From positions 248,001 to 312,000 of the forward strand of contig NZ_CP125297.1 in NCBI RefSeq assembly GCF_030412785.1: DNA of 64,000 nt, in the 5' to 3' direction. The number at the start of each line of letters is the position of its first letter. The first letter of the stretch is position 1. Made by a program: the position numbers and the translations under genes. Of the stretch, positions 36,306 through 53,335 are shown one piece after another. The stretch is from Paraburkholderia sabiae. GTDB lineage: Bacteria > Pseudomonadota > Gammaproteobacteria > Burkholderiales > Burkholderiaceae. A model generated the notes under the pieces. That model ran no database searches. It was not told where the DNA came from and was given only the letters and a program-made list of their open reading frames with translations.

Positions 36306-36364
36306 GGGACCGTGTCGGCCCCGTTGTGCCGAACATCCACATGCACTGCGCGGAGGTGTGGCGA

Positions 36365-36700: not shown

Positions 36701-36860
36701 AACATTGGATGTCAGACGTGAAGACGCGAAGTATAGCGGTATCCGCGGAATGGTGAACTACGGTTCGGTTGCCTGAAGCGGTCGAACCTTTGGCGCTTGC
36801 GCCACATCTTCTCGGGTTCCTTTGTGCGGCCGGAGAGCGGCACACGTTCGAATAACCTGG

Positions 36861-37061
36861 CTACGGGGCCGGAATAAACAGTTGGTTGATCAGGTCGCTG
36901 ACTATCTCGAAAGTGCGCAGGACGGTTGGATGAAGGAGGCTCGATCCATGAGCGTAAGCGTTCCGGATTTTCGGCAGGCTGTCGATAAAGACACTAATCC
37001 AGTCATAGTCCAAGTCCTCGGGGGAAGGTTTTACGGACGAGTAATCGATCTCCGCAGTTAA
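36861..37061 (-). pseudogene. 3' part of a HEPN-motif gene cut by IS5 insertion
   Basis: Reading the minus strand across the TTAA target site continues the frame of the 38239-38749 fragment. It adds 65 residues: TAEIDYSSVKPSPEDLDYDW, then DSLPKIRNAYAHGSSLLHPT, ending LINQLFIPAP and a stop at 36861. RNAYAH fits the R-x4-H catalytic motif of HEPN ribonucleases. This fragment no longer has a start of its own. Confidence 0.75.
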
Positions 37062-38238
37062 GGAAGATCTGCAGAAGTCGTTTTCGGCGCGATCTTCTTT
37101 CGCATCAGTCGCAGCCTGACCGCGGATGGTGCTTTGGGGTGAAGAGCGCCTGGTATTACCGCCTGTCCAAGGCTACGGCGGCGAAACCTGTGGCCACACC
37201 GATCTGATTTCAAGATTTCCGTAAGGCTCTGCGCGCCATCCATAAGTTGCTCAAGGCAAACAACGTGGTGATCTGGGCGGTATTTTTCATCAAACCACGA
37301 TAGCGGGTCTTCGCATAACCGAACTGCCTCTTGATGACGCGAAACGGGTGCTCGACCTTGGCTCGAATTCCAGCCTTCAGCCGTTCGATCTCATCGTATA
37401 TCGCATCCAGAGGATCACTTCGATCCAGCATTCGTCGCTTGCCCGGTCTCATCGCTACATGCCAACGCGCTGCGTGAGCCTCACAATGCTTTTCGATCCC
37501 CTGATACCCGGCGTCGGCGTAGACATCCGTTTCCTCGCCATGCAGCAACGCCTGGGCAACGGTGATGTCGTGCACATTGGCCGCCGTTCCAATGACGGTA
37601 TGAACGAGCCCGGAGTCTGCGTCCACGCCGATATGGGATTTCATTCCAAAGTACCAGTTGCCGGCTTTCTGTGTCGAGTGCATTTCTGGATCACGGGTGC
37701 CGGAACCGTTCTTTGTGGAACTGGGCGCGGCAATCAAAGTGGCGTCCACTGCCGATCCAGCCTTTAGCGTCAAGCCTCTCTCCGTCAGGATCTCATTGAC
37801 CAGTGCGAGCATTTTCGCCGCCAGACCATGCGTTTCAAGCAGATGCCGAAACCGCAGAATCTGCTTTCATCCGGCAAACGCGCCATGCCGTCGTCAAGGC
37901 TTGCGAACTGGCGATACAGCGGCACGTCGTACAGCGCTTCTTCCATTGCAGGGTCGGACAGAGAAAACCACTGCTGAATAAAATGAATCCGCAGCATCGT
38001 CACGATCGGGAACGGCGGTCGACCCGTTTTACCCTTGGGATAGTGCGGCTCAATCAGCGCAATCAGCCTTGGCCACGGCACAACACGGTCCATCTCATTC
38101 AGGAACTCCCGCTTGCGCGTTCGCTTTGTCGTCAAATCCAGACCAAGACCGAGTTGCGTCATTGACTCTCTCCAGAACATCCCTGCTACCCAGGATAGTT
38201 CACCTGCCTGTCAACGCCAGGACTTTTGCAGACCCTCC
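37062..38238 (-). mobile_element. IS5-family insertion sequence
   Basis: A 1177-bp element with ends GGAAGATCTGCAGAAGTC (left) and GGAGGGTCTGCAAAAGTC (reverse complement of the right end), imperfect inverted repeats of about 18 bp. A 4-bp target duplication TTAA lies at 37058-37061 and 38239-38242, typical of IS5. It carries one transposase gene on the minus strand, broken by a frameshift. It interrupts a HEPN-motif gene. Confidence 0.92.
37210..38162 (-). pseudogene. IS5 transposase with a frameshift
   Basis: N-terminal part from MTQLGLGLDLTTKRTRKREF with GKTGRPPFPIVTMLRIHFIQ and ARLPDES. The frame is then lost at about 37859 and resumes in another frame at MLALVNEILTERGLTLKAGS. The DDE core follows: SAVDATLIAAPSS, DVYADAGYQGIEK and the C-terminal E region HPFRVIKRQFGYAKTRYRGL. 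Deletion of one base after GAAAGCA explains it. Programmed frameshifting occurs in some IS5 subgroups, but this position inside the conserved LPDESTILRF block points to a mutation. Confidence 0.85.
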
Positions 38239-38749
38239 TTAACGTTCCGGAACGTTGCATCTGGTCAACCATCTGGAGTTCAGCTCGGCTCCTCGCGCGC
38301 TGGAGCGCCCACTCTATCCGCTTCGTGAAGCGGGCATTTGATATCAGTCTGTGAGCCAACGCCTCATTAAGCCAACCGCTTAGCCCGTTTGGCCGGCGTT
38401 TTCCCTTCGAGGGAAATTGTGTGACTTCTCCTTCAAGCCGTTCTCGCAACGCGAATTCCAGTGAAGCTAGCGCCTGCTGCTCAGCCACAGCGTGAAATCG
38501 ATAGACAAACCAAGCGTATGCATAGAGATTTTTCGCGGTTTCAAAATGTACTCTTACAGCCTCGGGTACCTCGGTGCGAAGGGTAAAGCGCGCAACATCC
38601 TCAAGTTGGTCGAGAGCCGTTGTAGGTCGAGCATTACCCACGACGCTGTCGAACCGGATGAACCCCAAATTTCTGGGGTCCGGCTCACACAAGGTGTCAA
38701 TCGTCCGCAACGATTCGCTCGGGTGGATGGTACGAGGGCTTTGGTCCAT
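38239..38749 (-). pseudogene. 5' part of a HEPN-motif gene cut by IS5 insertion
   Basis: The 170-residue fragment starts MDQSPRTIHPSESLRTIDTL. It contains a helical stretch (AKNLYAYAWFVYRFHAVAEQ) and ends MQRSGTL at the TTAA duplication. With the 3' fragment the intact gene would encode about 235 residues, all-helical, ending in the HEPN motif RNAYAH. The open frame runs 17 residues into the element. The intact ancestor was probably an RNase-type toxin or effector; its position beside a nuclease/ATPase island fits, but the role is inferred. Confidence 0.75.
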
Positions 38750-39275
38750 CAAATCTTTCTCACAGGTGGTGTGGGCGTCGCCGGGCACCGGTGCTTCGGG
38801 CCGCAATAATAGCGGATCAGTATGCTCGGGACTTCGTTAATCAGAAATGCTAGCGGGCGCGGAAGAAGTTGCATGGGTCGGTCGCTGAACTTCATTGCCG
38901 AATTCGGACCTTTCGAACATGGCCCTTCGCGGCCGAGCCTAGATTTGCATAGCGATCGCCGCACGGGCACTCTCGAAAAGCCGTATCAGGTTCTGTTCGT
39001 TACTGATCGCCTTCCAAATGAAATGGCGACCTGTTCATCGCTGTATCGAAAGAAAATCGTCTCGCCAGCCGGTATCCCGGAGCTCCAACCGGCAAAACCC
39101 GGCAGTGTGCGCTGCCACGCGCAGAATTCTGGTAAATTTGCCAAACTTCCACTGGACCAAAAATCTATTCTCGGCTAAAGAAGACCATTCGAACCGGCTG
39201 AGTTTTCAAAGAGACCAGAGTTAAAAGGTATCAAAGAAGAGAGCGTCGGGAAACCGGCGGACAGGGGGCACACAG
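38750..39275. other. upstream region of the helicase-nuclease gene
   Basis: 525 nt without a convincing gene. One open frame (38822-39178) has no ribosome site or known motif. The last 100 nt are A-rich and purine-rich and probably carry the promoter and leader of the large gene, but I find no strong -35/-10 pair. Confidence 0.45.
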
Positions 39276-42200
39276 ATGGCTAACGTGGCAAGCGACGAGA
39301 CGGCGACCGACGTATCAGATCGGACAGCCTTGATCCGGCTGTTCAACGACACTCGCAAGCGATTGGTCGAGACCGGCACCCGAAACCGTCTGGTGCACGT
39401 CAACCGTGCGAACACACGTGGGAACGTCGTGAACATCGTCAACGAGCGATCGGACGACGTCCATGCAATCCTTTCGAGTCGAAAGGTTATGCGCTTTCTG
39501 GCTATCGGCCATGATCGCGACGATTCCAGCGACGCGATACATTTAGCCGACGCCGGCTCGCAAGAGTTCGAGGCCGATCGCTACACGGATGCGCAGCTCG
39601 AGACCCGCATGGGTCCCGATGCCCTGCAGAAAAGACTTCTCAAGATCGCTCATGAAGCGCAGACGGCGGAGGAGGAGTCGGGCGTAAACATTCTCTATCT
39701 GGCGCTCGGCTTCCTCACCTGGTTTGAGGACAAATCTTCGGCCGTAGCGCGCGCAGCACCGCTGGTGCTTTTGCCGGTTGAACTCGTTCGCAACCAGCGC
39801 ACTTCAACCTTTGATGTCCGGATTCGGGACGAAGACGTCCTTACGAACCTGCCGCTGCAGCAACGGTTGAAGGACGATTTCGGCATCGCGTTGCCCGACA
39901 TCGAGGTAGAGGAAGGTTGGAAGCCCTCAACCTATTTTGAGCAGGTCGCGGAGGTAGTGAATGGCCGCGCCCGTTGGGAGGTCGAGAGCGATGCCATGCA
40001 GCTCGGTTTCTTTTCGTTCTCGAAACTGCTCATGTATCGCGACCTCGCTATCGATGCGTGGCCCGACGGGGCGATTGCGGAGCACGCGCTCACGCGCGGA
40101 CTGCTGTTCGAAGGCTTCGAGTCTGAAGTTCCGCTCTTTGGTCCCGAGGTCAGGCTCGACGACGTGCTGCCACCCGAAAAATTGTTCCACGTCGTCGATG
40201 CTGACGCATCGCAGGCACGTGTCATCGAGGAAGTGAGGTCAGGTCGTAACCTTGTCGTTCAGGGCCCTCCTGGAACGGGCAAGTCGCAAACGATTACCAA
40301 CATTATTGCGGCGGCAGCCAAGGAGGGAAAGCGCGTCCTCTTCATAGCCGAGAAGATGGCGGCTCTCTCCGTTGTGCATGATCGTCTCGTGAAGGTCGGT
40401 CTTCGGGATATCTGCCTGGAGCTTCACTCGCGAAGCGCGAACAGGAAAGCGGTGCTTGCGGAACTCGCCCGCACTATCGGAGCTGCCGCTGCCGTCCCCG
40501 TTCAAGCCGGTGCACCGGTCGCTCTCACTGAGGCACGCGACAAATTAAACCTGCTTGCAGAGGCTCTGCACAGTCCGATTGGAAGCACGGGGGAGACAGC
40601 CTTCTCGGTGTTGAGCGTGCAGGTTCATTACATCGGCTCGGGCGCGCCAGCTCCTACCATCTCTGCCGACGACCTTGTGCAGATGACGCGGGAGCAGGAG
40701 CGACAACTGCTCGAGACCGTTGCCCGCTATGGCGAAGTGCTCAGGGAGGAGGGCGACGCAAACAGGCATCCATTCGCTGGAACCCAAAACCTTGATCTCC
40801 AGCCACTCGACCTCACCCGACTGGCCAGGCTTATCGAGACCGCGCATGCCGCGGTGCTACTGCTAGAAGATGCAGTGAGAACTTCTGCGGGCGCATTGAG
40901 CGTTACTGTGCCAGTGACTATCTCGTCGGCAGGAACCATCGCAGACGTTCTTGACCGCCTGGAAGGTCTGCCGGCAGGATCTGCCAACACCGCGCGCGCG
41001 TTCCTTTCAGCGTCCGATTTACCGCGACTCAAGAAAGCGATCGAGGCCGGAGTTGCGTGGCGGTCAGAGCAAGACGCCGCCGATGAGACATTCGTTGAGG
41101 CGGCATTCGCTGCGAAGACGGCCACGTTGCGCGGACCATTGGTGGCTGGCACGCGCTCCTTCTTCGCGCGATTGGGCGGTGGCTACCGCGCCGCGTCCCG
41201 TGACCTGGCGGGCATGCTGCGCGGCCCACTTCCAAAGACAGCCGACAAACGCGTCGAACTGGTGGATCGACTCGATAGAGTCCAATCCCGCAAGGCGCGC
41301 TGGGAGGATGACAAAGACTATTGCCTTCGCGTTATGGGAGACGCTTGGCACGGAGAGCGGACTGACATGGGCGCCTTGCTCACAATCGCGGGGTGGTGTG
41401 AGCGAGCAGGCGATGCCGCACTAAACTGCTCGCCAGATACGCTGTTGGCGCTCGCCCAGCAGCCGGATGTGGTTGCGAAGATGCGACGCGCGCTTCGTGA
41501 TGCCGCGCCGAAGGTCGTCCGAGACCTGGATGAGGTCGTTCGTGTTTTGAAGCTGGATCCCAATGTGTTCGGCGAATCGAGCATGGAGAAAGTCGAGCTC
41601 GGCGAGATGGCGGCTCGCCTCGACGCGATGGCGTCGTCTACCGACCGCTATTCGGCATGGACTAATCTGACACGCCTGCACCAGCGGCTGGCGTCGACGG
41701 GTTTGACGGACCTTGCGCAACGAATGCGAACAGGTGAATTCGATCCTGCGGCGGCGGCTGTGGAACTCCGGTTCGCGCGCGCCGAGCGCCTTTGGCGCGT
41801 CGCGTTGGATTCGTCCCCCGTGCTACCCGATATGGGGCTGGAAAAGCGTCATGAACTTGTCGAGACGTTCGCATTGCTCGAACGCAAGCGCTTGTCGGAG
41901 AATGTGACCACCATCCTGTCCGGACACCTGCAGCAGGTCCCGCAGGGAGCCATGGGCGAAATGAAGGTGATCCGCGGCGAGATTGGCAAGAAGCGAGGGC
42001 ACATCGCTGTTCGCAAGCTGTTTTCGACGGCCGGCACGGCCGTGCAGCGGATCAAGCCCGTCCTGCTCATGAGCCCGATCTCGGTGGCCCAGTACCTCCC
42101 GCCTGGAGCACTGACCTTCGATCTGCTTGTGATCGACGAGGCGTCGCAGGTGCGTCCAGAGGATGCGCTGGGTGCGATCGCGCGTGCCAGACAGATTGTA

Positions 42201-43985
42201 GTGGTCGGTGACCAGAAGCAATTGCCACCGTCTTCCTTCTTTGACCGCCTTCTCGACGACGAGGCCGACGACGACGCCGATGAAGAAGCAGAGGCGGACC
42301 TGCTGGGTGGTGCGGCCAAGGTCGGCTCGATGGAAAGCATCCTTAGCCTTTGCGAGGCGCGGGGCATTGGTTCGCGCATGCTTCAGTGGCACTACCGGTC
42401 GCGAGATCCTTCGCTGATCCGGATGTCGAACCGCGAATTTTACGATGACGGCCTCATCTTGCCACCGTCACCACTGCAGAATGACCCAGCGTTCGGCCTA
42501 TGCTTCACTCGCGTCGATGGTGTTTACGACAAGGGCGGTAAGCGCGATAACCGGAAAGAGGGCGAAGCGATCGTGGGTCGCGTGGCGCAGCACGCACGTA
42601 TGCACCCAGAGCTTTCGCTTGGCATCGTCACGTTCTCTTCGACACAGAAAAATCTGATCACAGAGCTTTTGGAACTCGCACGCCGCAGCGATGCAGCTCT
42701 CGACGCATTTCTTCGCGAAGGGCAAGCCGAGGACGTGTTTGTCAAAAACATCGAAAACGTGCAGGGGGATGAGCGCGACGTAATCCTGGTCAGCGTCTGC
42801 TATGGTCCCGCCACACCCGGCGGCAGACTTGCCAGCATGACCTTCGGGCCGGTGAACATGGAAGGTGGCGAGCGTCGTCTCAACGTGCTCTTTACACGCG
42901 CACGCGTGCGCTGCGAGGTGTTTGCGTCGTTCGATCCAGGCGATATCGATCCCAGCCGGGTAAGTCGCGAGGGCGCCCGCATCCTGAAGCGTTTCCTGGA
43001 GTTCGCGAAAAACGGCAATATGGACGACTCCAGGCCTACTGGTGAAATGGCCGACACGCCGTTCGAGGAGGATGTCGCTAACGTCATTCGCAGCTTCGGC
43101 TATCTGGCGGACCCGCAGGTCGGATCGGCGGGCTTCCGGATCGACATGGGGGTTCGGCATCCGGAGCGCCCCGGCACGTACGTTCTGGCAGTCGAATGTG
43201 ACGGCGCGACCTATCACAGCGCACTGTGGGCGCGAGAGCGTGATCACCTGAGGCAGGACGTCCTCGAGCATCTCGGCTGGCGCTTCCATCGCATCTGGAG
43301 CACCGACTGGTTTTACAACCGACGGGCGGAGACAGAGCGGCTAAGAGTTGCTCTTGCCTCTGCGCGCGAGGCCGCAGAAGCTGGCGTTCGTATCGAAGGC
43401 GCCAACCGGCCTCGGCCGGTTTCGATCCCGGTCGTCGAAGCGGCGACTACTTCTTTCGAGGTCCCTGATGCTGTCACGAGGCAGATGCCCGCTTACCAGC
43501 GCGCACATTTTCCTGTGAGCACCCGGCAGGAACCCCACGAGGTCCCCACGTCAATACTGGCCGATCTGGCCAAGCGAATCGTGGCAGCCGAGGGGCCCAT
43601 CAATGTTGAGGAGGCTGCACGGCGCCTCGCGGCGTGCTTCGGGAAGGAGAAGGCTGGCTCGCGCATTCTGACCGCGACGCGCGCCGCGTTGCTTCAGGCA
43701 CAGTCGGGCGACCGTGATCTCCTCTGCGACGAAGAATTCTGGTTCATACGCGAGCACCTGGACGCGGTGCCGGTCAGGGACCGGTCCGCCGAGAGCGGAG
43801 CGACACTGAAGTCTACGAACATTTCGATGCTCGAGATCAAGGCTGCGCTGAAAATTGCCCGAGATGACAATGCAGGCGGCACCGACGCAGATCTGGTTCG
43901 CACGGCAGCAAGACTGCTCGGCTTCCGTCGTGTCGGTCCTGACTTGCAGGCTCGTCTTGCGGCCGGGCTATCGGCAATCCATTGA
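39276..43985 (+). CDS. COG1112-type helicase fused to a Vsr/MTES-like nuclease (DUF4011/DUF3320 architecture)
   Basis: A 1569-residue multidomain protein. The N-terminus has the DUF4011-like signature RLFNDTRKRLVETGTRNRLV (about 21-40). The SF1 helicase core has Walker A GPPGTGKSQTI (about 330), Walker B VIDEASQVRPED (about 952), VVGDQKQLPPSSF, ENVQGDERDVILVS and LNVLFTRAR. A long helical insertion lies between Walker A and B. Near the C-terminus a REase_MTES_1575/Vsr-like nuclease follows (FRIDMGVRHP about 1288, AVECDGATYHS about 1306, HRIWSTDWF). A DUF3320-like helical end comes last. COG1112 helicases are core components of several antiphage systems. All motifs look intact, so it is probably a DNA- or RNA-targeting defence effector. 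Confidence 0.9.
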   Translation: MANVASDETATDVSDRTALIRLFNDTRKRLVETGTRNRLVHVNRANTRGNVVNIVNERSDDVHAILSSRKVMRFLAIGHDRDDSSDAIHLADAGSQEFEADRYTDAQLETRMGPDALQKRLLKIAHEAQTAEEESGVNILYLALGFLTWFEDKSSAVARAAPLVLLPVELVRNQRTSTFDVRIRDEDVLTNLPLQQRLKDDFGIALPDIEVEEGWKPSTYFEQVAEVVNGRARWEVESDAMQLGFFSFSKLLMYRDLAIDAWPDGAIAEHALTRGLLFEGFESEVPLFGPEVRLDDVLPPEKLFHVVDADASQARVIEEVRSGRNLVVQGPPGTGKSQTITNIIAAAAKEGKRVLFIAEKMAALSVVHDRLVKVGLRDICLELHSRSANRKAVLAELARTIGAAAAVPVQAGAPVALTEARDKLNLLAEALHSPIGSTGETAFSVLSVQVHYIGSGAPAPTISADDLVQMTREQERQLLETVARYGEVLREEGDANRHPFAGTQNLDLQPLDLTRLARLIETAHAAVLLLEDAVRTSAGALSVTVPVTISSAGTIADVLDRLEGLPAGSANTARAFLSASDLPRLKKAIEAGVAWRSEQDAADETFVEAAFAAKTATLRGPLVAGTRSFFARLGGGYRAASRDLAGMLRGPLPKTADKRVELVDRLDRVQSRKARWEDDKDYCLRVMGDAWHGERTDMGALLTIAGWCERAGDAALNCSPDTLLALAQQPDVVAKMRRALRDAAPKVVRDLDEVVRVLKLDPNVFGESSMEKVELGEMAARLDAMASSTDRYSAWTNLTRLHQRLASTGLTDLAQRMRTGEFDPAAAAVELRFARAERLWRVALDSSPVLPDMGLEKRHELVETFALLERKRLSENVTTILSGHLQQVPQGAMGEMKVIRGEIGKKRGHIAVRKLFSTAGTAVQRIKPVLLMSPISVAQYLPPGALTFDLLVIDEASQVRPEDALGAIARARQIVVVGDQKQLPPSSFFDRLLDDEADDDADEEAEADLLGGAAKVGSMESILSLCEARGIGSRMLQWHYRSRDPSLIRMSNREFYDDGLILPPSPLQNDPAFGLCFTRVDGVYDKGGKRDNRKEGEAIVGRVAQHARMHPELSLGIVTFSSTQKNLITELLELARRSDAALDAFLREGQAEDVFVKNIENVQGDERDVILVSVCYGPATPGGRLASMTFGPVNMEGGERRLNVLFTRARVRCEVFASFDPGDIDPSRVSREGARILKRFLEFAKNGNMDDSRPTGEMADTPFEEDVANVIRSFGYLADPQVGSAGFRIDMGVRHPERPGTYVLAVECDGATYHSALWARERDHLRQDVLEHLGWRFHRIWSTDWFYNRRAETERLRVALASAREAAEAGVRIEGANRPRPVSIPVVEAATTSFEVPDAVTRQMPAYQRAHFPVSTRQEPHEVPTSILADLAKRIVAAEGPINVEEAARRLAACFGKEKAGSRILTATRAALLQAQSGDRDLLCDEEFWFIREHLDAVPVRDRSAESGATLKSTNISMLEIKAALKIARDDNAGGTDADLVRTAARLLGFRRVGPDLQARLAAGLSAIH

Positions 43986-44336
43986 GCACCGACGGACAAT
44001 ATATTTCAAGAGCAAGGGTGGACAAGCCCGGTCAAAGGCGGCGCGCCAGAATGGCTGACGTAGACGCGCGCCGATCGATCACCGACCGAAGAGAATCAGA
44101 TGTACTTTGGTCGAATGTGTCTGGGTAGACGCTCGAATGTGACGAAGGCTACCGCCTTTTGACGAGACATTGCTGCCCGGAAGTGTACGTTTGCAAGCGA
44201 TCGCGTCGCCCAGCACGGCGCCATACTGTCAGTACACGAGACCAGATCCCACGTCCTCGATGCAGCCGTATATTGGAACCAAACGTGGAATGCTTAAGTC
44301 CGGGATCAAAGATACGCACGAAAAGGGGGAATCAAT
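43986..44336. other. gene-free stretch after the helicase gene
   Basis: 350 nt with only short overlapping frames lacking ribosome sites. I see no terminator with a U-run. Confidence 0.4.
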
Positions 44337-44474
44337 ATGGCACGACGCCGATATCAACGAAAGAGCCATTTGGCTGCTGCAATCAATAATTCGAGTCCCG
44401 GGTGGCAGATATTCTGGGCGGTAGTTGTTGTTGTAGCGTTTTTGTTTGCGATGGTGATGGCTTTTTCACGCTGA
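44337..44474 (+). CDS. 45-residue single-span membrane protein
   Basis: MARRRYQRKSHLAAAINNSS, then a hydrophobic helix (IFWAVVVVVAFLFAMVMA, about 25-43) and a short end FSR. AAAGGGGG lies about 8 nt before ATG 44337. The basic N-terminus followed by one helix suggests an inner-membrane protein with a cytoplasmic N-terminus. It lies between the helicase-nuclease and DUF2130 genes on the same strand, so it may be a membrane component of that system. No homology is claimed. Confidence 0.6.
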   Translation: MARRRYQRKSHLAAAINNSSPGWQIFWAVVVVVAFLFAMVMAFSR

Positions 44475-44972
44475 GCGAGAAAGCCGTTGACGTCGTGACC
44501 AGTATGAGTATTGCTGCCATGCTGTTTGATTATAGCCGACGTTCGTCGTTAAGAAACGGTACATCGGTTGCGTGGCAGTTTGCTGCCGTTCCCGAACCGG
44601 CGTCGGAGAATGGCACTTCTCACTCTCGACGAACTGGTCTTCGCCCCCGGTACGGACCTTAAGATCTGTCGAAAGCGGCCGTATACGTGACATACACCTG
44701 CGTTTCTATACCCGCCTTGGAATGAGACGCTTCATTCGTCGCGTGTCCAGCGACTGCTTTGTAGCGTCATTGCTCAGCGCTTATAAGCGGCAAGGATCGC
44801 CGTTCGACTTCACGGTCGTGATCGTCAATAATCGCCCATCCTGAAGCCACAAACGTGGACAATGGCGATACATTGATTCCAGCCGGTCGAAAACCTGATT
44901 GCAACGCGGGTGGCGAAAAGGCCGGGCTCGGAATACGAAAGTGAATTCTGATAAAAGCGGGGGAACCTAGGC
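44475..44972. other. gene-poor stretch before the DUF2130 gene
   Basis: About 500 nt. One frame ending at 44842 (HLRFYTRLGMRRFIRRVSSD and beyond) looks slightly protein-like but has no good start. The last 40 nt are purine-rich and precede the DUF2130 gene. Otherwise nothing seen. Confidence 0.4.
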
Positions 44973-46382
44973 ATGCACGAAATCATTTGCCCGCACTGCG
45001 GGAAAGCGTTCAAGATTGACGAGGCGGGGTACGCGGACATCCTAAAACAGGTGCGCGATAGCGAGTTCGAGCAGCAATTGCACGAGCGACTTGAGCTGGC
45101 CGAGCAGGACAAGCGAAATGCCGTTGAGCTTGCCACGACCAAAGTTGCTAGCGAGTTGAAGGAGGCTTCCGTAGCGAAGGACTCCGAGATCAAAGAACTG
45201 AAGGCCAAGATCGATGCGGCGGAAGTCGTGCGGAAGCTGGCCATTACCGAGGCGCTCAACGCTGTGGAGAAAGAGCGTGACGTGCTTGCGAACGAACTTG
45301 AGCAGGCAAGGCGTGAAACGGAATCTGCTGCGAAGCTGGCCGAGGCGAACCTTTTGAACGAGCTGCAGAAGGCTGCCGCGGCGAAGGACGCTGCGATTCA
45401 GGAGCTGACATCCAAGCTCGGCGCAATAGAGGTTGCGCAGAAGCTTGCAATTTCGGAGGCTGTTGGCAAAGTCGAGAAAGAGCGGGATGAATTGAGGAAT
45501 GGCCTCGAACGAGCCGCGCTTGAAAAGCAGCTTGCCGAGAAGTCGCTTAAGGACAAATACGAGACACAGATCAAAGATCGCGATGATGCAATCGAGCGTC
45601 TCCGTGACATGAAGGCTCGCCTGTCGACCAAGATGGTTGGCGAAACTCTCGAGCAGCATTGCGAGACAGAGTTCAACCGCATTCGAGCGACAGCATTTCC
45701 GAGAGCCTATTTCGAGAAGGATAACGATGCGCGAACCGGCAGCAAGGGCGACTACATTTTTCGTGACACGGACGAAGCGGGCACTGAGATCGTTTCCATC
45801 ATGTTCGAAATGAAGAACGAAAATGATCGAACGGCGACGAAGAACAGAAACGAGGAATTTCTGAAGGAGCTCGACAAAGATCGTACCGAGAAGGGGTGCG
45901 AATATGCGGTGCTGGTTTCTCTACTGGAACCCGACAACGATCTCTACAACACTGGGATCGTTGACGTCTTCCACCGCTTTCCGAAGATGTACGTCGTCCG
46001 GCCGCAGTTCTTCATTCCGATCATCACGCTGCTGCGAAATGCTGCGATGAACTCTCTCACGTATAAGTCGGAGCTGGCGCTCGTCAAGGCGCAGAACATT
46101 GACATCACGAAGTTTGAAGGTGAGCTTGAGACTTTTAAGGCGGCATTCGCGCGAAATTATGACCTCGCCTCCGGACACTTCCAAAAAGCCATCGCGGAGA
46201 TCGATAAGTCAATCGACCATCTGCAGAAGACGAAAGACGCCCTCCTGGGCACCGATCGAAACCTTCGTCTTGCGAACGACAAGGCGCAGGATGTGACGAT
46301 CAAGAAGCTAACTCGGGGCAACTCGACAATGGCGGCAAAGTTTGCCGAACTTAAGAACCAAAATCCTTCCGATGCCGGTTAA
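44973..46382 (+). CDS. DUF2130 protein, predicted nuclease with zinc ribbon and coiled coil
   Basis: A 469-residue protein. It has an N-terminal half zinc ribbon (ICPHCGKAF, residues 5-13), then a long coiled coil (about 25-215) made of two copies of a 69-residue unit. Residues 53-121 ([20 protein letters not shown]) match 122-189 ([20 protein letters not shown]). The C-terminal DUF2130 domain has a PD-(D/E)xK-like core: GDYIFRD (D260) and FEMKNEN (E279, K281). GGGGGAA precedes the ATG. DUF2130 is widespread and of unsettled role; the nuclease motif and neighbours suggest defence or DNA processing. Confidence 0.85.
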
Positions 46383-46417
46383 GTCAGGATTGAAGAAAAA
46401 TATTTACGGGATATACC

Positions 46418-47644
46418 ATGACTGACAGAAGCGCCGTAGACACTATTCGGGGATATTTCTACCAGTTCGATCTGTCAATCCTCAGCATCTTGCAACTGGC
46501 GTCACCAGACGATTCCGTCGAGATCGAATGCACCGAAGACATCGACATCCGGACCGCAACGGACGTTACGGCCACGCAATGCAAGTATTACGCGAAGACG
46601 GAATACAACCACTCCGTGATCAAAGATGCGGTAAAGCACATGGTGTCCCATTTCAAAGAAAGCTTGGCGGGAACAAAACCAAAGATCTCTTACTCTATTA
46701 AAGGCCACTACGCCTCGGGTCAGGAAAAACTGGATGGAGGCATCGACGTCGATTTCCTGAAAAAACATTTCCTCACGTACTCGGAGGGGAAAGGCACTAC
46801 CAAGGTTACGCGCTACCACTATTCGGAGCTTGGCCTTTCCGATGCGGATCTCGAGGAATTCCTGAAACGCTTCACCATCGACGTTAGGGCGAAAGAGTTT
46901 GACGAACAATACCGCGAGGTACTCGAAGCCGTCCGAGCTATCTTCGGAGGCACGTCGTTCTCGGCCGAATACTTCTACTACAACAACGCACTAGCCGTTA
47001 TCCGCGAGCTCTCGATCAAACCGGTGCCGGAGGACCGGAGAATCACGAAGAAGGAGTTCCTAACAAGAATCAACACCTCCACGATCCTGTTCAATGAGTG
47101 GTTCATAGAGAAGAAGGGCAAGAAGGCACATCTTGCGGCGCTCCGCAAGGAATACTTCACGGAGCTCAACGTATCCCCGCATGAGCGCTTCTTCCTAGTC
47201 GAGGCGGACGCTGCTGGCTCGTACGTTCGGAGCGACCTCAAGGACCTCTTCTTCGAGCTTTCCAGGAAGTGGGCGAAGCTGTCCGCGCGAGAGCCCTCCC
47301 CCTTCTGCCCGTACATCTACGTCCACGGCGTACCAGACGACGAGCTGCTCGCGCTGAAGAGAGAGCTGAGCGTGGAAGGGTTCAAGCTCATTGACGGCCA
47401 CGACTTCCAAGGCGCGGACTTCAGCTATCACTCAATCACGCAGAAAGCCACGCATGGCAATGGGGTAAAGATCAAGGTCCTGAACACCCTTCCTAACGTT
47501 GAGCAAACCGTGGATGCCGTTACCAAGACCCGACGCATCTACCAGTTCCACCTGGGCAGCGGCTACTTCGACTACGAAAAGCCGGCAGTTCGGCACGTCA
47601 AGATTCAGGTAGAGCGGCTTTCGGACGTCAAATCCATCATCTAA
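46418..47644 (+). CDS. Cap4/DUF4297-like dsDNA nuclease (probable HerA partner)
   Basis: A 408-residue protein. The N-terminus fits the DUF4297/Cap4 nuclease fold: GYFYQFDLSILSILQLAS, then a glutamate-rich strand (VEIECTEDIDI, E35 and E37) and the QCKYY strand (Q54, K56), a PD-(D/E)xK variant. The remainder (about 110-400) is a mixed domain with no recognised family; it may recognise a trigger or partner. The gene is 35 nt after DUF2130 and 10 nt before a HerA ATPase gene, the same pairing as in DUF4297-HerA defence systems. The nuclease family is assigned by pattern and context. Confidence 0.7.
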   Translation: MTDRSAVDTIRGYFYQFDLSILSILQLASPDDSVEIECTEDIDIRTATDVTATQCKYYAKTEYNHSVIKDAVKHMVSHFKESLAGTKPKISYSIKGHYASGQEKLDGGIDVDFLKKHFLTYSEGKGTTKVTRYHYSELGLSDADLEEFLKRFTIDVRAKEFDEQYREVLEAVRAIFGGTSFSAEYFYYNNALAVIRELSIKPVPEDRRITKKEFLTRINTSTILFNEWFIEKKGKKAHLAALRKEYFTELNVSPHERFFLVEADAAGSYVRSDLKDLFFELSRKWAKLSAREPSPFCPYIYVHGVPDDELLALKRELSVEGFKLIDGHDFQGADFSYHSITQKATHGNGVKIKVLNTLPNVEQTVDAVTKTRRIYQFHLGSGYFDYEKPAVRHVKIQVERLSDVKSII

Positions 47645-47654
47645 CCGTAGGCAC

Positions 47655-49346
47655 ATGAACATGGCAAACGCGCAGGAAGAAGAGCAAATCAACGCCCAGG
47701 TAATCGCAGTCTTCCCCGACAAGGTACGCATCGTTGTGGACGACCTCGAAGACTTCAAGGTAGCGGAAGAATCGCTGAAAGTCGGCTCTTACGTGAAGAT
47801 CGCTGACAACGAGAACGCGATCCTCATAGCCATTATCGAGAACTTCCAGATCGCCGTCAGTTCGGACGGGAAACGGGACCACATCATCGAAGCCTTCCCG
47901 CTTGGCATCCTGAGGGACGGCAAATTCGAGCGCGGCGGCGATTCGCTCGCGATCCCGCCGAAGGAAGTCCAGCCCGCGACCATCGCTGATATCAAGAAGA
48001 TTTACGACGACTCAGTGCCTGAAGCGGAGAGGTTCCGCTTTGCGACGCTGGCGTCGAACAAGAACGTCCCCGTTCCCGTCAACGGAAACAAGTTCTTCAA
48101 CAAGCACATCGCCGTGGTCGGCTCCACGGGGTCAGGCAAGTCGCATACCCTCGCTACCGTCATCCAGAACGCGGTAAAAGAAAAGAACGGCGACTTCTCG
48201 CTCAACAACTCGCACGTGATCGTCTTCGACATCCACTCGGAGTACAAGTCAGCCTTCCCTTCGGCAAACCACATCGACATCTCAAACCTGATCTTGCCGT
48301 ACTGGATGCTGAACAGTGAAGAGCTGGAAGAGTTCTTCCTCGACACTGAAGCTAATGACCACAACCAGAGAAACATTTTCAAGGAAGCGATCATCAGGGA
48401 CCGCCGCGAAAAGTTCAGTGGTTCCGAGGCCGAAAAACAAAAGATCCACCTCGACACGCCTATCCTATTCGACATCAAAGAAGTGCTTGCGTACGCAAAC
48501 GCAAAGAACGAAGAGATGGTCGATACTGGAGAAGTCTACGCGGCTAGCAACAAGGAAAAGGCCGGTCAGCCAAAATACACACAGGGCAGCCTTTACGGGA
48601 AGCTGACCAATTTCGTGAATCGGCTCGAAAACAAGGTCAACGACAGTCGGCTTGATTTCTTCCTCGGCGAGAAATCAAAGAGCATCACGTTTGAAGAAAC
48701 GCTCCAAAAACTGCTCGGGTACCCTTCGAAAGGAAATTCGAACGTGACCGTCATTGACCTCAGCGGAGTTCCATTCGAGGTGCTGAGCATAACGGTCTCA
48801 CTCATCTCGCGCCTCGTTTTCGAGTACGGGTATGTCTACAAGCGTATGCGCTGTGCCAAGGACCCTAACGAGAAGGTTAACAACGACGTGCCAATCCTGC
48901 TTGTCTACGAAGAGGCACACAAGTATGTCCCGAACAGCGAGCTATCCAAGTACCGCTCATCCAAAGTCTCCATTGAGCGGATCGCGAAGGAGGGACGGAA
49001 GTACGGCGTTACCTTGTTGCTTGCCAGCCAGCGCCCCTCCGAGATATCCGAAACGATCTTCTCTCAATGTAGCAACTTTATTGCGATGCGCCTTACCAAT
49101 CCAGCGGACCAAGGGTACGTGAAGAAGCTGCTTCCGGACTCGCTCGGCTCGCTGATCGACAAGATGACGTCGTTCCGGCAAGGTGAAGCGCTGCTGGTCG
49201 GTGAATCCATAATCCTTCCGTCGATCGTCCAGATCGACCAGTGCGCTGACGCCCCATCTTCCAACGATATCCCGTACTGGCAGCTCTGGAAGGAGGAGTG
49301 GAAGGACATGGACTTCGCGGCCATCAGGGCGGAGTGGTACAAGTAA
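47655..49346 (+). CDS. herA: HerA-like hexameric ATPase
   Basis: HerA/FtsK-type ATPases translocate DNA and form complexes with partner nucleases. The 563-residue protein has an N-terminal HAS-barrel-like beta region (1-110). Walker A is VVGSTGSGKSHTL (about 154-166), a conserved strand is IVFDIHSEYKSAF (189), and Walker B is ILLVYEEAHKYVP (about 414-426). A sensor/Arg-finger region follows with TLLLASQRPSEIS and NFIAMRLTNPADQGYVKKLL. An internal ATG two codons in is possible. It is transcribed with the upstream nuclease gene, so the two likely form one complex. Confidence 0.92.
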   Translation: MNMANAQEEEQINAQVIAVFPDKVRIVVDDLEDFKVAEESLKVGSYVKIADNENAILIAIIENFQIAVSSDGKRDHIIEAFPLGILRDGKFERGGDSLAIPPKEVQPATIADIKKIYDDSVPEAERFRFATLASNKNVPVPVNGNKFFNKHIAVVGSTGSGKSHTLATVIQNAVKEKNGDFSLNNSHVIVFDIHSEYKSAFPSANHIDISNLILPYWMLNSEELEEFFLDTEANDHNQRNIFKEAIIRDRREKFSGSEAEKQKIHLDTPILFDIKEVLAYANAKNEEMVDTGEVYAASNKEKAGQPKYTQGSLYGKLTNFVNRLENKVNDSRLDFFLGEKSKSITFEETLQKLLGYPSKGNSNVTVIDLSGVPFEVLSITVSLISRLVFEYGYVYKRMRCAKDPNEKVNNDVPILLVYEEAHKYVPNSELSKYRSSKVSIERIAKEGRKYGVTLLLASQRPSEISETIFSQCSNFIAMRLTNPADQGYVKKLLPDSLGSLIDKMTSFRQGEALLVGESIILPSIVQIDQCADAPSSNDIPYWQLWKEEWKDMDFAAIRAEWYK

Positions 49347-49674
49347 CCCCCCGCACGGTGTGCGTAGGGGCACCAAGAGATTGATGGGCAAACAGTCCGA
49401 GTTGGGTTCCGCTATCAATGGTCGGTTTCATGGCGAGGGGCCTTTTTCGAAGAACCGATGACGAAGAGGAGTCCGAGGTTGCCCTTTGTGAGGCGCATCA
49501 GGAGCGCCGCCTCGGAACACGTTGAGTACGCAAGTATCTCGCTTTCACTTGAAAATTCGTTGATATCCGGAAACACGGCTTCCTGCGGACCTTACGAGTT
49601 GCATTGCTCCATGCACATGCGTTAGGTTTGCACATATCCCGCCGTGGGCGGGAGCCACAAGGAGAGGGTTTTAT
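49347..49674. other. gap before the HU gene
   Basis: About 330 nt without a gene. It probably contains the HU promoter, but I find no strong -35/-10 pair. Confidence 0.4.
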
Positions 49675-49953
49675 ATGAACAAGCAGGAACTCATCGACGC
49701 AGTCGCCGCCAGCACGGGCGAAAGCAAGTCCAGCACGGGCGAGGCCCTTGATGCCATCCTCGAGGTTGTGACTGCTGCGGTGACGCGTGGCGAGACGGTG
49801 CAACTGATAGGCTTCGGTTCGTTCTCAACGGGCGCCCGGGCTGAGCGTACGGGCCGCAATCCTTCGACGGGCGAGACGCTCACGATACCTGCCGCTAAAA
49901 CCGTCAAGTTCACCGCCGGGAAAGGATTCAAGGACGCTGTCAACGCGGCGTAA
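49675..49953 (+). CDS. hup: HU-family DNA-binding protein
   Basis: HU bends and compacts DNA. The 92-residue product keeps the whole family pattern: [20 protein letters not shown], the conserved [20 protein letters not shown] arm and [29 protein letters not shown] precedes the ATG. A strong terminator follows. It may be a plasmid copy assisting replication or recombination; its position next to the defence island and integrase is notable. Confidence 0.95.
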
Positions 49954-49994
49954 GGTGCCGGCCTGACTGGCCATTTCGGCTGCATGTCGTACAC

Positions 49995-50025
49995 GCCCGC
50001 CATCAGTCAGATGGCGGGCTTTTTT
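49995..50025 (+). terminator. rho-independent terminator after hup
   Basis: Perfect 10-bp arms GCCCGCCATC and GATGGCGGGC with a 5-nt loop, followed by TTTTTT. A textbook terminator 42 nt past the stop. Confidence 0.9.
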
Positions 50026-50072
50026 CGGTCGGCGCGAAGTGCCGACTCATCCGGCTTCCGCCGCCTTAGCGA

Positions 50073-50342
50073 TCAGGGTCGTGCAAAATCGTCTGGCGTC
50101 AGTTGGAGCTTCGCAGCGGGATGAGCGAGCAGCTTGCGTTCGGCGATCGCACGGATGCGCCCGTATCCATCGCGGAACGTTTTCAGCACCTGAGCTTCGC
50201 TGGCCCGGGGATCAAGCCAGAAGTAAGCTTGCAGCGTCGTGAGCGTGATCACGCACTGCACCCTGCTATTCGCGTGGGCGAGAGCGAACGCGACGCCGCG
50301 GCGATCGGCGAGTACTCGAGGTTCGAGATCGAGGGTTTCCAT
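50073..50342 (-). CDS. DUF1488 family protein
   Basis: An 89-residue protein with the DUF1488 pattern: DRRGVAFALAHANSRVQCVI, TLTTLQAYFWLDP and YGRIRAIAERKLLAHPAAKL, ending LTPDDFARP. Common in Burkholderiales, of unknown function. It follows the toxin-antitoxin genes on the same strand but is separated from them by about 100 nt. Confidence 0.75.
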   Translation of the reverse strand: METLDLEPRVLADRRGVAFALAHANSRVQCVITLTTLQAYFWLDPRASEAQVLKTFRDGYGRIRAIAERKLLAHPAAKLQLTPDDFARP

Positions 50343-50445
50343 AGCACACGCGCGTTGAATGAATATCCGTAGCAGACGATGCCCCCTGAATCCGCCTGTT
50401 GAACACGATCGGCGCCCGTTCGAGAGGGACTTTTGGCGCGATCAA

Positions 50446-50742
50446 TCAAGATCCCTGTTTGCCCCTTGGGTAGCGTTGCCGTGCGCCGATGATGCGCACG
50501 ATTTCTATCAAACCCACCTGTTTTCTGATCCGATAGACGAGCACATAGTTGGACGTGAGTACCATTTCACGGGTACCACGAATACGTCCGGGCTTGTACA
50601 ACTCAGGACGCGCGGGCAACGCGTCGGTCTGTCGTTCTATCCGGTCATCCAGCTCAAGTGCGGCGGTGGGGTTGTCCTGCGCGATATAGTCGAAAAGCCT
50701 GTTGCGATCCTCGCGTGCCTTCGGGCGCCACTCGACGATCAA
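50446..50742 (-). CDS. parE: ParE/RelE-superfamily toxin
   Basis: A 98-residue protein with the RelE/ParE fold: MIVEWRPKAREDRNRLFDYI, then NPTAALELDDRIERQTDALP, then PGRIRGTREMVLTSNYVLVY and VEIVRII. ParE toxins poison gyrase; whether this one acts on gyrase or on mRNA is not decided by the sequence. It overlaps the upstream 152-residue gene by 4 nt (ATGA), the classic toxin-antitoxin arrangement. Confidence 0.88.
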   Translation of the reverse strand: MIVEWRPKAREDRNRLFDYIAQDNPTAALELDDRIERQTDALPARPELYKPGRIRGTREMVLTSNYVLVYRIRKQVGLIEIVRIIGARQRYPRGKQGS

Positions 50743-51197
50743 GATTTAGCCCCGGCTCGGGCGATCTTCCTGCGCAGCGCCGCCTTCTTTTCAACCATCT
50801 CCTGCTGCACCTGTGCGTGCGGCACGTTTGGGCGAGGGTCGTCGAGCGACTCCTGCACCTGCTCACGAAACCACCTGTCATACGCGCGTGCGGCGTGTGC
50901 CTCCTTGAGCGCGGCAGACCGATCGGGTCGGGTGACGCGCTCGGCTGCCTGTGGATCGTAGCCGGCCGCGTCCACGTCGAAGTGGCTGATGCCCATATCG
51001 CGCAGGAAGCTCACCAGCGTTTCCAGCTTGCGAAACACACGGACGTCGCCGCGCTTGGCCGCGAGAAAACGCTCAGTCCGGCCATAGTGTGCCGAGATCG
51101 TCCAGCCGTTGCCGTGGCCAACGACATGCGCCGCACGTACAGCGCCTGCTTCCACGAGCTGGGAGAGGGTTTTCTGGTCGATGGTTTCGGTTGCCAT
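50739..51197 (-). CDS. antitoxin-like protein paired with ParE
   Basis: A 152-residue protein. The first 80 residues carry a small globular start with WTISAHYGRTERFLAAKRGD, then FRKLETLVSFLRDMGISHFD. The C-terminal part is helical and charged (RPDRSAALKEAHAARAYDRW, then VQEMVEKKAALRRKIA), suited to wrapping a toxin. It is longer than usual ParD antitoxins, so it may be a different antitoxin family or a protein with an added DNA-binding part. ATG 51197 is chosen; the upstream open frame is a translation of another gene's strand. Confidence 0.65.
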   Translation of the reverse strand: MATETIDQKTLSQLVEAGAVRAAHVVGHGNGWTISAHYGRTERFLAAKRGDVRVFRKLETLVSFLRDMGISHFDVDAAGYDPQAAERVTRPDRSAALKEAHAARAYDRWFREQVQESLDDPRPNVPHAQVQQEMVEKKAALRRKIARAGAKS

Positions 51198-51225
51198 GTC
51201 AGTCTTCCTTGATGAGCTCGGGACG

Positions 51226-51504
51226 CTAGGCACGCACGACGGCCTCGAACTGCGGGCCGTAGCCGAGCGTATCGGGGTAGCTGTTCGCGCGTGTGGCAAG
51301 CCGGAACACGACGCACAGATCCTCGGCAATCGCCTCGTCCACGGACCACCCCGTTGTAAGATCGTACGCGCCGCACGCGCTGGCATTCCACCATGCCAGC
51401 AGGAAATCCGCCACGCGCCGGCTCTGGTGGGTGTCGCCGCGCGCGTGCTCAAGCAGGCGCTCGAGGGCCGCGCGCTCGGTAGCCGTCATCTGATCGGGCC
51501 GCAT
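51226..51504 (-). CDS. DUF7673-like small protein
   Basis: A 92-residue protein with TATERAALERLLEHARGDTH, VADFLLAWWNASACGAYDLT and AEDLCVVFRLATRANSYPD. This pattern is found in small Burkholderiales proteins (DUF7673 by memory). It is first in a minus-strand series with the toxin-antitoxin pair. Function unknown. Confidence 0.7.
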   Translation of the reverse strand: MRPDQMTATERAALERLLEHARGDTHQSRRVADFLLAWWNASACGAYDLTTGWSVDEAIAEDLCVVFRLATRANSYPDTLGYGPQFEAVVRA

Positions 51505-51565
51505 CGTTTTCGCTCCGTAAAGGCCAGCTCGCGCTGGGGATCCTGCGTCTGATTCTATAATTGTA

Positions 51566-51596
51566 CAGCACCCATTTTATTGTAAACTGGGTGCTG
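51566..51596. promoter_or_regulatory. inverted repeat with promoter-like sequence upstream of the DUF7673 gene
   Basis: Arms CAGCACCCA and TGGGTGCTG, 9 bp, perfect, 13-nt AT-rich spacer. On the minus strand TTTACA and TACAAT flank one arm, so the palindrome could be an operator over the promoter of the DUF7673/toxin genes. A terminator for the integrase gene is the alternative, but there is no U-run. Confidence 0.5.
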
Positions 51597-51628
51597 CGTA
51601 ATTCTCGCAATCGATCCGTTCGCTTCCC

Positions 51629-53335
51629 TCATTTTCTGACATCGAAAGCCTCGCCGATCTGCCGCGCGCGCTTCACTTCGTCGCTGTGCAGATAAATGGA
51701 CGTCGTGGAAACGGAGGCGTGCCGCAGGTTGTCGCGCACCGTGGTGAGCTCGGCGCCGTGCGCAAGCGCGAAGGTAGCGTGGGTGTGGCGAATCCAGTGT
51801 GGGCTCGCGCGTCGCAGCTTCTGTGCGAGCGGCGGGTGATCGGTCTCGATCGCATTGGCGGCAAGCAGCAGGAAGCGCTCGAGGACGCTCCACAGCCGCA
51901 CACTGCTGATGGCCGCGTCACTGTCCGTTTCCAGGCTGCCGATGATCGGCGTGTCCGGCCGCCAGCGCGCAGGAGTAGTCGGCAGCTGGCGCCCGGCCAG
52001 ATAGCGGGCCAGTGCCTCCCACGCCAGCGGCGGCAGCGCCACCCGCGCGATCTTGCCGCCTTTGCCGGTGACGCGCAGCCAGTGTTCGCCGCGTGCATCC
52101 GTCTCAACGTGGCCGAGCGTCGCGCCGACGAGTTCACCCGCGCGCAGGCCCGTCGCAAAGCCGAAATCGAGCAGAAAGCGTAGCCGCTGCGCGGCGGGTA
52201 CCGTCCAGCCGTCAGACCACTCAAGCCCGTCGGCCATCGTCCGCACCAGCGCCCATTCGCCGTCGGTAAAGGCGCGCGATGCATCGAGCACGGACGCCGT
52301 CTTGCCACCGCGCACCCTGATGCCCGCAAAGGGGTTAGCCAGCACGTAGCGCTGTTCGATGAGCCAGCGGAACAGGGCGCCAAGAATCGACAGCGCGTGC
52401 GCAACCGAGCGCGCCGACAGGCTGCCGTTAAACGGCCGCCAGTCGGGCGACGTGCGCGGTCGCACCCGGCCGATCCAGCGGCTGCGCGGCGACGGGTGCC
52501 GCAAGAAGGTCCGGTACGCGATCGCATCCTCGGTCGTCAGCGACGACAGCGCACGGCCGCGTTCGACGATCGCCCACAGGATCAGCCGCTCTGCTTCCTT
52601 GCGATACGTTCGCTGCGTGGCGGGCGACTCGTGCAGCGATAGCCACGTCTGTACGGCTTGGTAGTCGTTGGACGCGTTGAGCGTGCAGGTCGCGGGCGGC
52701 GCGCGGAACGTGCCAGCGGAGCCGTCGACCTCGTGGGGCAGTTTGAGGGTTTCCCGCGGCACGATGTCGCCACGCTGGCTGGCGACAACCAGCGCGCGGG
52801 CTCTTTCCGTGAGGGCGGGCCAGGCGGCGAAGAAGGCCTCGATGGTCCGGGCGCTGGCCGCGCCGAGCCCCGGCACGGCTTTCCACCACTGGCGCCGGCG
52901 CGGGATGCGCACGGTCAGATCGGCGAGCGTCGTGATGCCGTGTGCGTGCAGCACGCGCACCGCGCGGGGAGTGAACCACTGTGCGATGTCGTCGGCGATC
53001 TGCGGTTCGGGCGGGCGCGCCGTGCGCAGCACGTTGACCGCGTGCGCCATGGTCTTCGCATGCTGTTCGCGCTCCTGCGCGGGATGCGAGAGAAGGGCGG
53101 CCAGATCGTCCCGGTGGACCGCACACGCGACATCGAGCAGCTTGCGGCGAATACGGCCGAGCACCCCGCGCGCCGACCTTCCGTTTCCGAGCGCCGAAGG
53201 CAGATAGCGCTCTACGGCCTGCCGGACCGGCACGCCGGCGTACCACGCGCGCAGCACCGCGAGTTCATCCGCGTCCGGAAAGCCAGCGGGCTCCCCGGGA
53301 AGAGGGGTCATATCGTGGACAGGGCGATTTTCCAT
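51629..53335 (-). CDS. XerC/D-type tyrosine recombinase with long N-terminal extension
   Basis: A 568-residue site-specific recombinase. The N-terminal 190 residues are a plasmid-type integrase extension containing a helix-hairpin-helix-like segment (VRVLHAHGITTLADLTVRIP). A SAM-like core-binding domain follows (about 210-340, SPATQRTYRKEAERLILWAI). The catalytic domain keeps the Arg in FATGLRAGELVG, the Lys in VTGKGGKIA, HxxR in PHWIRHTHATF, and the final LRHASVSTTSIYLHSDE with the nucleophile Tyr. All catalytic residues are present. It may resolve multimers or move the adjacent region. Confidence 0.92.
   Translation of the reverse strand: MENRPVHDMTPLPGEPAGFPDADELAVLRAWYAGVPVRQAVERYLPSALGNGRSARGVLGRIRRKLLDVACAVHRDDLAALLSHPAQEREQHAKTMAHAVNVLRTARPPEPQIADDIAQWFTPRAVRVLHAHGITTLADLTVRIPRRRQWWKAVPGLGAASARTIEAFFAAWPALTERARALVVASQRGDIVPRETLKLPHEVDGSAGTFRAPPATCTLNASNDYQAVQTWLSLHESPATQRTYRKEAERLILWAIVERGRALSSLTTEDAIAYRTFLRHPSPRSRWIGRVRPRTSPDWRPFNGSLSARSVAHALSILGALFRWLIEQRYVLANPFAGIRVRGGKTASVLDASRAFTDGEWALVRTMADGLEWSDGWTVPAAQRLRFLLDFGFATGLRAGELVGATLGHVETDARGEHWLRVTGKGGKIARVALPPLAWEALARYLAGRQLPTTPARWRPDTPIIGSLETDSDAAISSVRLWSVLERFLLLAANAIETDHPPLAQKLRRASPHWIRHTHATFALAHGAELTTVRDNLRHASVSTTSIYLHSDEVKRARQIGEAFDVRK

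Follow-up and report, generated by a model that had tools for sequence, protein, structure and literature searches.

Does a run of nuclease and ATPase genes on one strand form a single defence system, or does it bring together separate systems that happen to adjoin? The question is raised by positions 39276-49346 of a 64-kb stretch of DNA from Paraburkholderia sabiae (hereafter the window, bases 248001-312000 of a 615,744-bp contig in a 9.9-Mb genome of four contigs), where genes for a COG1112-type helicase-nuclease, a DUF2130 protein, a DUF4297 nuclease and a HerA ATPase follow one another. A sequence-only reading of this DNA had proposed either one composite system of these genes and a small membrane protein, or two adjacent systems, one of helicase, membrane protein and DUF2130 and one of nuclease and HerA. 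We consider it probable that the locus comprises separate modules in a defence island, one of them the known DUF4297-HerA system; the island of defence-type nuclease and ATPase genes, DUF4297-HerA included, is thus retained from the earlier reading, and the composite with helicase and membrane peptide is not. The features of the locus are as follows.

39276-43985, forward strand: COG1112-type protein of 1569 amino acids, with DUF4011, SF1 helicase (AAA_11/AAA_12), MTES_1575 Vsr-like nuclease and DUF3320
44337-44474, forward strand: 45-amino-acid open reading frame (ORF) with one hydrophobic stretch, an ORF only and unsupported as a gene
44945-44972, forward strand: 28 bp before the DUF2130 gene, common to other DUF2130 loci
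44973-46382, forward strand: DUF2130 protein of 469 amino acids, with a CPHC motif, a long coiled coil and a GDYIF...EMKNE core
46418-47644, forward strand: DUF4297 (Cap4-like PD-(D/E)xK) nuclease of 408 amino acids (NF042945, PDB 8xav_G)
47655-49346, forward strand: HerA hexameric ATPase of 563 amino acids (NF042944, PDB 8xau_A)

The four large genes are intact and share one strand, and they and their motifs were found as the sequence-only reading had described them. By residue, the motifs are GPPGTGKS 330, VIDEAS 952 and VECDG 1306 in the helicase, CPHC 6, GDYIF 259 and EMKNE 279 in the DUF2130 protein, ECTED 37 and QCKYY 54 in DUF4297, and GSTGSGKS 156 and VYEEAH 417 in HerA. By their coordinates, the gaps measure 987 bp between COG1112 and DUF2130, 35 bp between DUF2130 and DUF4297 and 10 bp between DUF4297 and HerA. 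A consensus scan, the totals of which were near those of shuffled DNA, found no promoter-like or terminator-like site on the forward strand of the 35-bp gap, and placed a forward promoter-like site at 44804-44832 and a forward terminator-like site at 49424-49442. The membrane protein of the earlier reading is not supported as a gene, because only residues 1-25 of the 45-residue ORF find a match, with E-values up to 0.1, in two of the 72,556 plasmid records, where the DNA carries no annotation.

A complete DUF4297-HerA pair

Sequence comparison identifies the two downstream genes (46418-49346) as a complete, already characterised DUF4297-HerA pair with intact catalytic residues. The DUF4297 protein scored 538.2 bits against NF042945 (cut-off 300), and the HerA protein encoded directly downstream scored 927.7 bits against NF042944 (cut-off 850), both being curated NCBIfam equivalog models for the proteins of this anti-phage system. 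The matches to the corresponding PADLOC models had E-values of 3.3e-157 for DUF4297 and 1.5e-283 for HerA, and the proteins aligned nearly full length to PDB entries 8xav_G (E 9e-81) and 8xau_A (E 5e-203), respectively. Residues D41, Q54 and K56 of DUF4297 and K162 of HerA align to the published D40, Q53, K55 and K157, mutation of which is reported to abolish defence (PMC11291478), so that all four are kept. Among 14 DUF4297 sequences, including that of the window and reaching down to 33% identity, E37, E40, D41, Q54 and K56 were invariant. The assignment is made because both proteins exceed the equivalog cut-offs and match the solved complex with the experimentally tested residues conserved, and the earlier reading of nuclease and HerA as a known antiphage module is borne out; the arrangement itself is not new.

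The published system is described as a complex of about 1 MDa that degrades double-stranded DNA and acts by abortive infection (An et al. 2024, PMC11291478; PDB 8xau-8xay), and in that work the two genes alone protect E. coli. Both PMC11291478 and PMC12198126 regard some restraint of the complex, or of its expression, as probable and describe the trigger as unclear. The copy in the window shares with the published system the gene order and the tight spacing, and differs in having a DUF2130 gene 35 bp ahead and in being known from its sequence alone.

To survey the gene neighbourhoods of relatives, genome contigs were scanned for DUF4297, and the best 80 of 125 relatives, with up to 10 kb on each side and often less where a contig ended, were searched by tblastn (E 1e-5) for all four proteins of the window; nine plasmid loci (L002-L010) of 17 matching records and four viral loci (L091-L094, of which L091 seems to be identical DNA to L011) were added. 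A HerA match stood beside DUF4297 in 78 of the 80 genome loci. The two loci without one were L023, where the stretch stops at DUF4297, and L081, which holds a DUF4297 fragment, and the match was partial in L059, L076, L083 and L088.

Several relatives show additional features. In L002 (10001-15935), a plasmid of Rhizobium rhizogenes, DUF4297 is separated from HerA by an IS66 element and the HerA match begins only at residue 138; the system is probably broken there. Genes for an SbcD/Mre11-like exonuclease and an SMC/Rad50-like ATPase flank DUF4297-HerA in 18 of the 93 loci, forming two sequence clusters of nine (L003-L006, L009, L010, L019, L047, L049, L056, L059, L060, L061, L063, L066, L069, L072 and L076); the L003 exonuclease scored 56.2 bits against an sbcd cut-off of 77.65, and its 1135-residue ATPase partner matches no NCBIfam model. 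The archaeal HerA-NurA-Mre11-Rad50 neighbourhood resembles this arrangement, and a literature search for an antiphage association of HerA with Mre11 and Rad50, with most subscription papers outside it, found nothing. A related exonuclease/ATPase pair, with Metallophos and SMC-type ATPase domains, lies upstream of DUF4297-HerA in L178 (10924-14726, reverse strand). In L003 (1993-8014), and also in L004 and L005, DUF4297 is preceded by a trio encoding a TerB-domain protein, an ATPase and a DEAD-helicase, and in L003 the helicase gene, as annotated, shares 23 bp with that of DUF4297. The trio is Shango-like, a name taken from PMC10250203 for what is a candidate likeness only.

A probably separate COG1112 helicase-nuclease

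The COG1112 protein carries DUF4011 (E 1.5e-37), an SF1 helicase, the MTES_1575 nuclease (E 4.9e-35) and DUF3320, in that order. These domains are shared with Hhe and ProA, whereas the scores of the protein lie below the cut-offs for both (967.8 vs 2000 bits for Hhe, NF042953; 1290.7 vs 1500 bits for ProA, NF058533) and it is about 230-340 residues shorter than the models. The PADLOC model PDC-S37, which has no stated cut-off, was matched with 1796.2 bits over its full length (residues 19-1565 on model positions 6-1530 of 1550), which makes the protein a candidate one-gene defence protein of this type. The best 120 of 6162 homologues were 1522-1703 residues long and 64-99% identical. No paper on PDC-S37 was found in a literature search outside which most subscription papers lie, and COG1112 patterns gave no match in viral contigs in a scan that finds close relatives only.

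The helicase is probably a module separate from DUF2130 and DUF4297-HerA. No COG1112 match was found by tblastn beside DUF4297 in the 80 genome, nine plasmid or four viral loci, nor in the 26 further loci with DUF2130, and the best 120 of the 6162 COG1112 homologues had no contig size in common with the 119 DUF4297 or 110 DUF2130 homologues listed. The nearest relative readable with its flanks (G364, 73% identity, L179/L180) has neither DUF2130 nor DUF4297 beside it. It is adjoined by an exonuclease/ATPase pair with a Metallophos domain, likewise related to those beside DUF4297-HerA (L179, 13740-17488, reverse strand).

The DUF2130 protein and its linkage to DUF4297-HerA

The DUF2130 protein was assigned to PF09903 with 306.5 bits (gathering threshold 26.7; E 1.7e-91), and no PADLOC or NCBIfam model matched it at E 0.01. 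In a 25-sequence alignment D260 and K281 were invariant and E279 nearly so, giving a D...ExK core, and the CPHC motif is presumably zinc-ribbon-like. A low-confidence structural model, with a mean predicted local distance difference test score (pLDDT) of 61 and mostly under 50 in the core, has an order of helices and strands that would fit a PD-(D/E)xK nuclease; sequence searches of the PDB gave nothing better than E 0.06, with those matches outside the core. A repeat of about 69 residues, present in differing numbers of copies, accounts for the variable length of the coiled coil, as in proteins of 469, 538 and 609 amino acids (A2 columns 88-360; P0145, P0147, P0154, P0172, P0201, P0207, P0242 and others). 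Of 274 genomes from the class, 10 had a DUF2130 match, six of them above 240 bits, and of 398 from the family, 14 had one, seven above 600 bits (the genome of the window included in both cases), and phage records gave no match.

In the survey described above, DUF2130 was found near DUF4297 in one of the 80 genome loci (L048, Kriegella aquimaris), where it follows HerA, and in none of the nine plasmid and four viral loci. Reciprocally, the 26 DUF2130 loci besides the window (two of which, L108 and L117, gave no DUF2130 ORF in gene calls) contained DUF4297 once, again in L048, and one weak HerA match (L120, 58.9 bits). It was first concluded from the single genome locus that DUF2130 is unrelated to DUF4297-HerA; this view was dropped on the linkage seen in protein lists, and both results are kept.

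In these lists, 10 of the 119 DUF4297 homologues (76-93% identical) share the exact size of their longest contig with one of the 110 DUF2130 homologues that have a listed size (5136, 5633, 6542, 8890, 11131, 32881, 40243, 55584, 370896 and 2068356 bp), and eight of the linked ones are among the 36 listed at 87% identity or more. Jittered contig sizes gave a mean of 0.6 coincidences, with a maximum of 5 in 2000 trials. Two pairs have adjacent locus tags, WS62_13530/13535 in Burkholderia sp. ABCPW 14 and LMG6871_02918/02919 in Ralstonia edaphis, and for a third (contig of 2,068,356 bp) the two lists agree on the name Ralstonia pseudosolanacearum. Four of the linked contigs measure 5.1-8.9 kb and would therefore hold DUF2130 and DUF4297 within a few kb. 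Distances among the 11 DUF2130/DUF4297 pairs, with that of the window, are correlated (r 0.51, permutation p 0.027). In the tip order of a midpoint-rooted FastTree tree of DUF2130, five of the ten linked relatives fall near the protein of the window and the others are scattered, and the joining may thus have happened more than once. We found no description of this recurrent variant, the attachment of DUF2130 to DUF4297-HerA, in the literature searched, nor a paper on a defence role of DUF2130/COG4487 (judged by title and start of abstract, with most subscription papers outside the search).

Among the 398 family genomes, five matched DUF4297, and only that of the window matched both DUF4297 and DUF2130. 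Within the genus (144 genomes), seven had a DUF4297 match, which reached 60% identity in three of them, the genome itself, G623 and G699. Sixteen genomes of one further genus gave no match, and no record in the plasmid collection covered 80% of the DUF2130-to-HerA stretch or of 36000-54000.

DUF2130 beside OLD-like nucleases and other genes

DUF2130 also occurs with another ATPase-nuclease. It starts 2 bp after the gene of an OLD-like protein in six of the 26 loci (L115, L143, L144, L146, L172 and L174, of which L144 and L146 resemble each other), and in L108, L147, L148 and L151 the upstream DNA spans under 1 kb, so that an OLD gene could not have shown. Both OLD-like proteins put through Pfam (L144, L174) have AAA_15 and OLD TOPRIM domains, and Old was the best PADLOC model for both proteins tried (L144, L115). 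The pair is present in two of 5426 E. coli genomes (H5 and H6), and in H6 its neighbours are a helicase/DUF4391 pair on one side and, on the other, a methyltransferase/type III endonuclease pair. With L184 added to the six loci above, OLD-like nuclease and DUF2130 at 2 bp form a recurrent two-gene unit, for which searches by DUF2130/COG4487 found no paper, most subscription papers lying outside them. The pair (E. coli H5/H6, Enterobacter, Burkholderiaceae) resembles the arrangement in the window in the same DUF2130 family and an operon-like spacing to an ATPase-nuclease gene, and differs from it in that no OLD gene was found in the window by tblastn and DUF4297-HerA follows DUF2130 there.

One further locus, L173, retains just the last 49 OLD residues before DUF2130 (79.6% identical) and has apparently lost the OLD gene while keeping DUF2130. 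The 28 bp before the DUF2130 gene of the window were compared with OLD 3' ends, which gave z-scores of 3.0-4.4 for L172, 2.0-3.7 for L143 and -0.6 to 1.1 for the other four, an uneven support on which these 28 bp may conceivably be a remnant of the 3' end of an OLD gene. Positions 44945 and 44954, before DUF2130, each mark the beginning of homology blocks in several loci, and the 28 bp probably hold a ribosome-binding site.

Other neighbours of DUF2130 include TIR/caspase genes, type I restriction genes, methyltransferases with a TrlF-type ATPase, an abortive-infection gene, insertion sequences and ordinary metabolic genes.

Setting of the locus

When 36000-52000 was compared by blastn with the fetched loci, homology fell into separate blocks: COG1112 (39310-43964, in two pieces, among the 60 matches listed), DUF2130 (44945-46388, from 44872 in L130), DUF4297-HerA (46396-49349) and 49819-52000. 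No match crossed the DUF2130/DUF4297 junction, a result limited by the fact that, among the fetched loci besides the window, only L048 was seen to carry both genes, in another order. Such blocks are consistent with modules that move separately.

The 615,744-bp contig is taken to be a plasmid, with the following plasmid features in the window.

19797-21200: Rep3-type initiator
31227-34319: LPD7 protein with a sub-threshold relaxase match
51629-53335: integrase (DUF3701 / Phage_integrase)

No tRNA was found in the window by ARAGORN, and Rfam at gathering scores gave nothing in the 64 kb. A transposase (DDE_Tnp_1, DUF772) split across two ORFs (37210-38180, reverse strand) lies about 1.1 kb ahead of the COG1112 gene, and a PaaA2-type stability determinant and an integrase lie within 49819-53335. 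The stretch 49819-52000 is 88.5% identical to the P. phymatum plasmid pBPHY02 (L121), which has three recombinase/integrase genes at the edge that in the window faces the defence genes. The GC content of the window drops from about 61% to 53-54%.

Weighing of the interpretations

Several results weigh against the reading of the locus as separate modules with DUF2130 attached to the known pair. Base composition lends no support to separate origins: the genes have similar GC at third codon positions (GC3, 0.67-0.75) that leaves the modules unseparated, codon-usage correlations do not group them by module, and GC was rejected as a sign of separate origins. PDC-S37 is a candidate family only. In 79 of the 80 genome loci with DUF4297, among them the nearest readable ones (L011, 85% identity; L012-L015, 75-80%), DUF2130 was absent, so that the system can do without it. 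The protein lists covered the best 120 of 1120 DUF4297, of at least 8000 DUF2130 and of 6162 COG1112 homologues, and the longer linked contigs show only that DUF2130 and DUF4297 reside on one contig. In the ABCPW 14 pair, finally, the identities to the window are 86% for DUF2130 and 93% for DUF4297, which suggests that partners have been exchanged.

That all five genes make up one composite defence system is extremely improbable. Adjacency and common strand in the window speak for it, against which the gene order does not recur in the loci examined, COG1112 is missing from all 93 DUF4297 and all 26 other DUF2130 loci and shares no contig size with the listed homologues of either, the 987 bp after COG1112 hold no supported gene and the membrane peptide is barely conserved. 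The proposed grouping of helicase, membrane protein and DUF2130 is not supported either, as DUF2130, where linked, goes with DUF4297-HerA or an OLD-like nuclease. A stronger competitor, which touches the accessory role of DUF2130 only and to which we give a little less than an even chance, is that DUF2130 acts independently, as a defence or repair nuclease of a single gene that hitchhikes beside DUF4297-HerA. It is favoured by several plasmids with DUF2130 lacking a close co-directional partner, by a DUF2130 homology block that stops before DUF4297, and by family sizes, since at least 8000 DUF2130 homologues vs 1120 for DUF4297 leave most DUF2130 proteins without such a partner. It is opposed by the above-chance number of same-contig-size pairs with partly matching divergence, and by the 35-bp gap free of forward promoter-like or terminator-like sites, in a scan with totals near chance.

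In the reading as separate modules, the COG1112 protein would be a one-gene helicase-nuclease, which presumably moves along foreign DNA and cleaves it. The second module most likely works as published: judged by its homology to the solved complex, it would assemble two DUF4297 layers on a HerA hexamer into a machine of about 1 MDa that degrades phage and host double-stranded DNA after infection, resulting in abortive infection. DUF2130 is probably in the same operon as DUF4297 and, as a best guess, would supply the module with a further nuclease activity without being an obligatory subunit; we infer this working partnership, as well as the expression, assembly and anti-phage activity of the genes in the window and all function of DUF2130. 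This role as a mobile accessory of ATPase-nuclease defence modules is proposed tentatively, being rather less than evenly probable. It is unlikely, though conceivable, that DUF2130 is a plug-in regulator or second effector common to OLD-like and DUF4297-HerA machines, which silences the toxic DUF4297-HerA until infection in the strains that carry it; the linked DUF2130 is a low-probability candidate for the restraint that is regarded as probable for the published complex.

The core system is thus a known one and most of the finding is ordinary, the attachment of DUF2130 being its only unusual part. DUF2130 is a strongly conserved family of at least 8000 homologues that recurs beside two kinds of ATPase-nuclease defence machine, and a natural DUF2130-DUF4297-HerA cassette would make the trigger and the restraint of DUF4297-HerA testable by the deletion of one gene.

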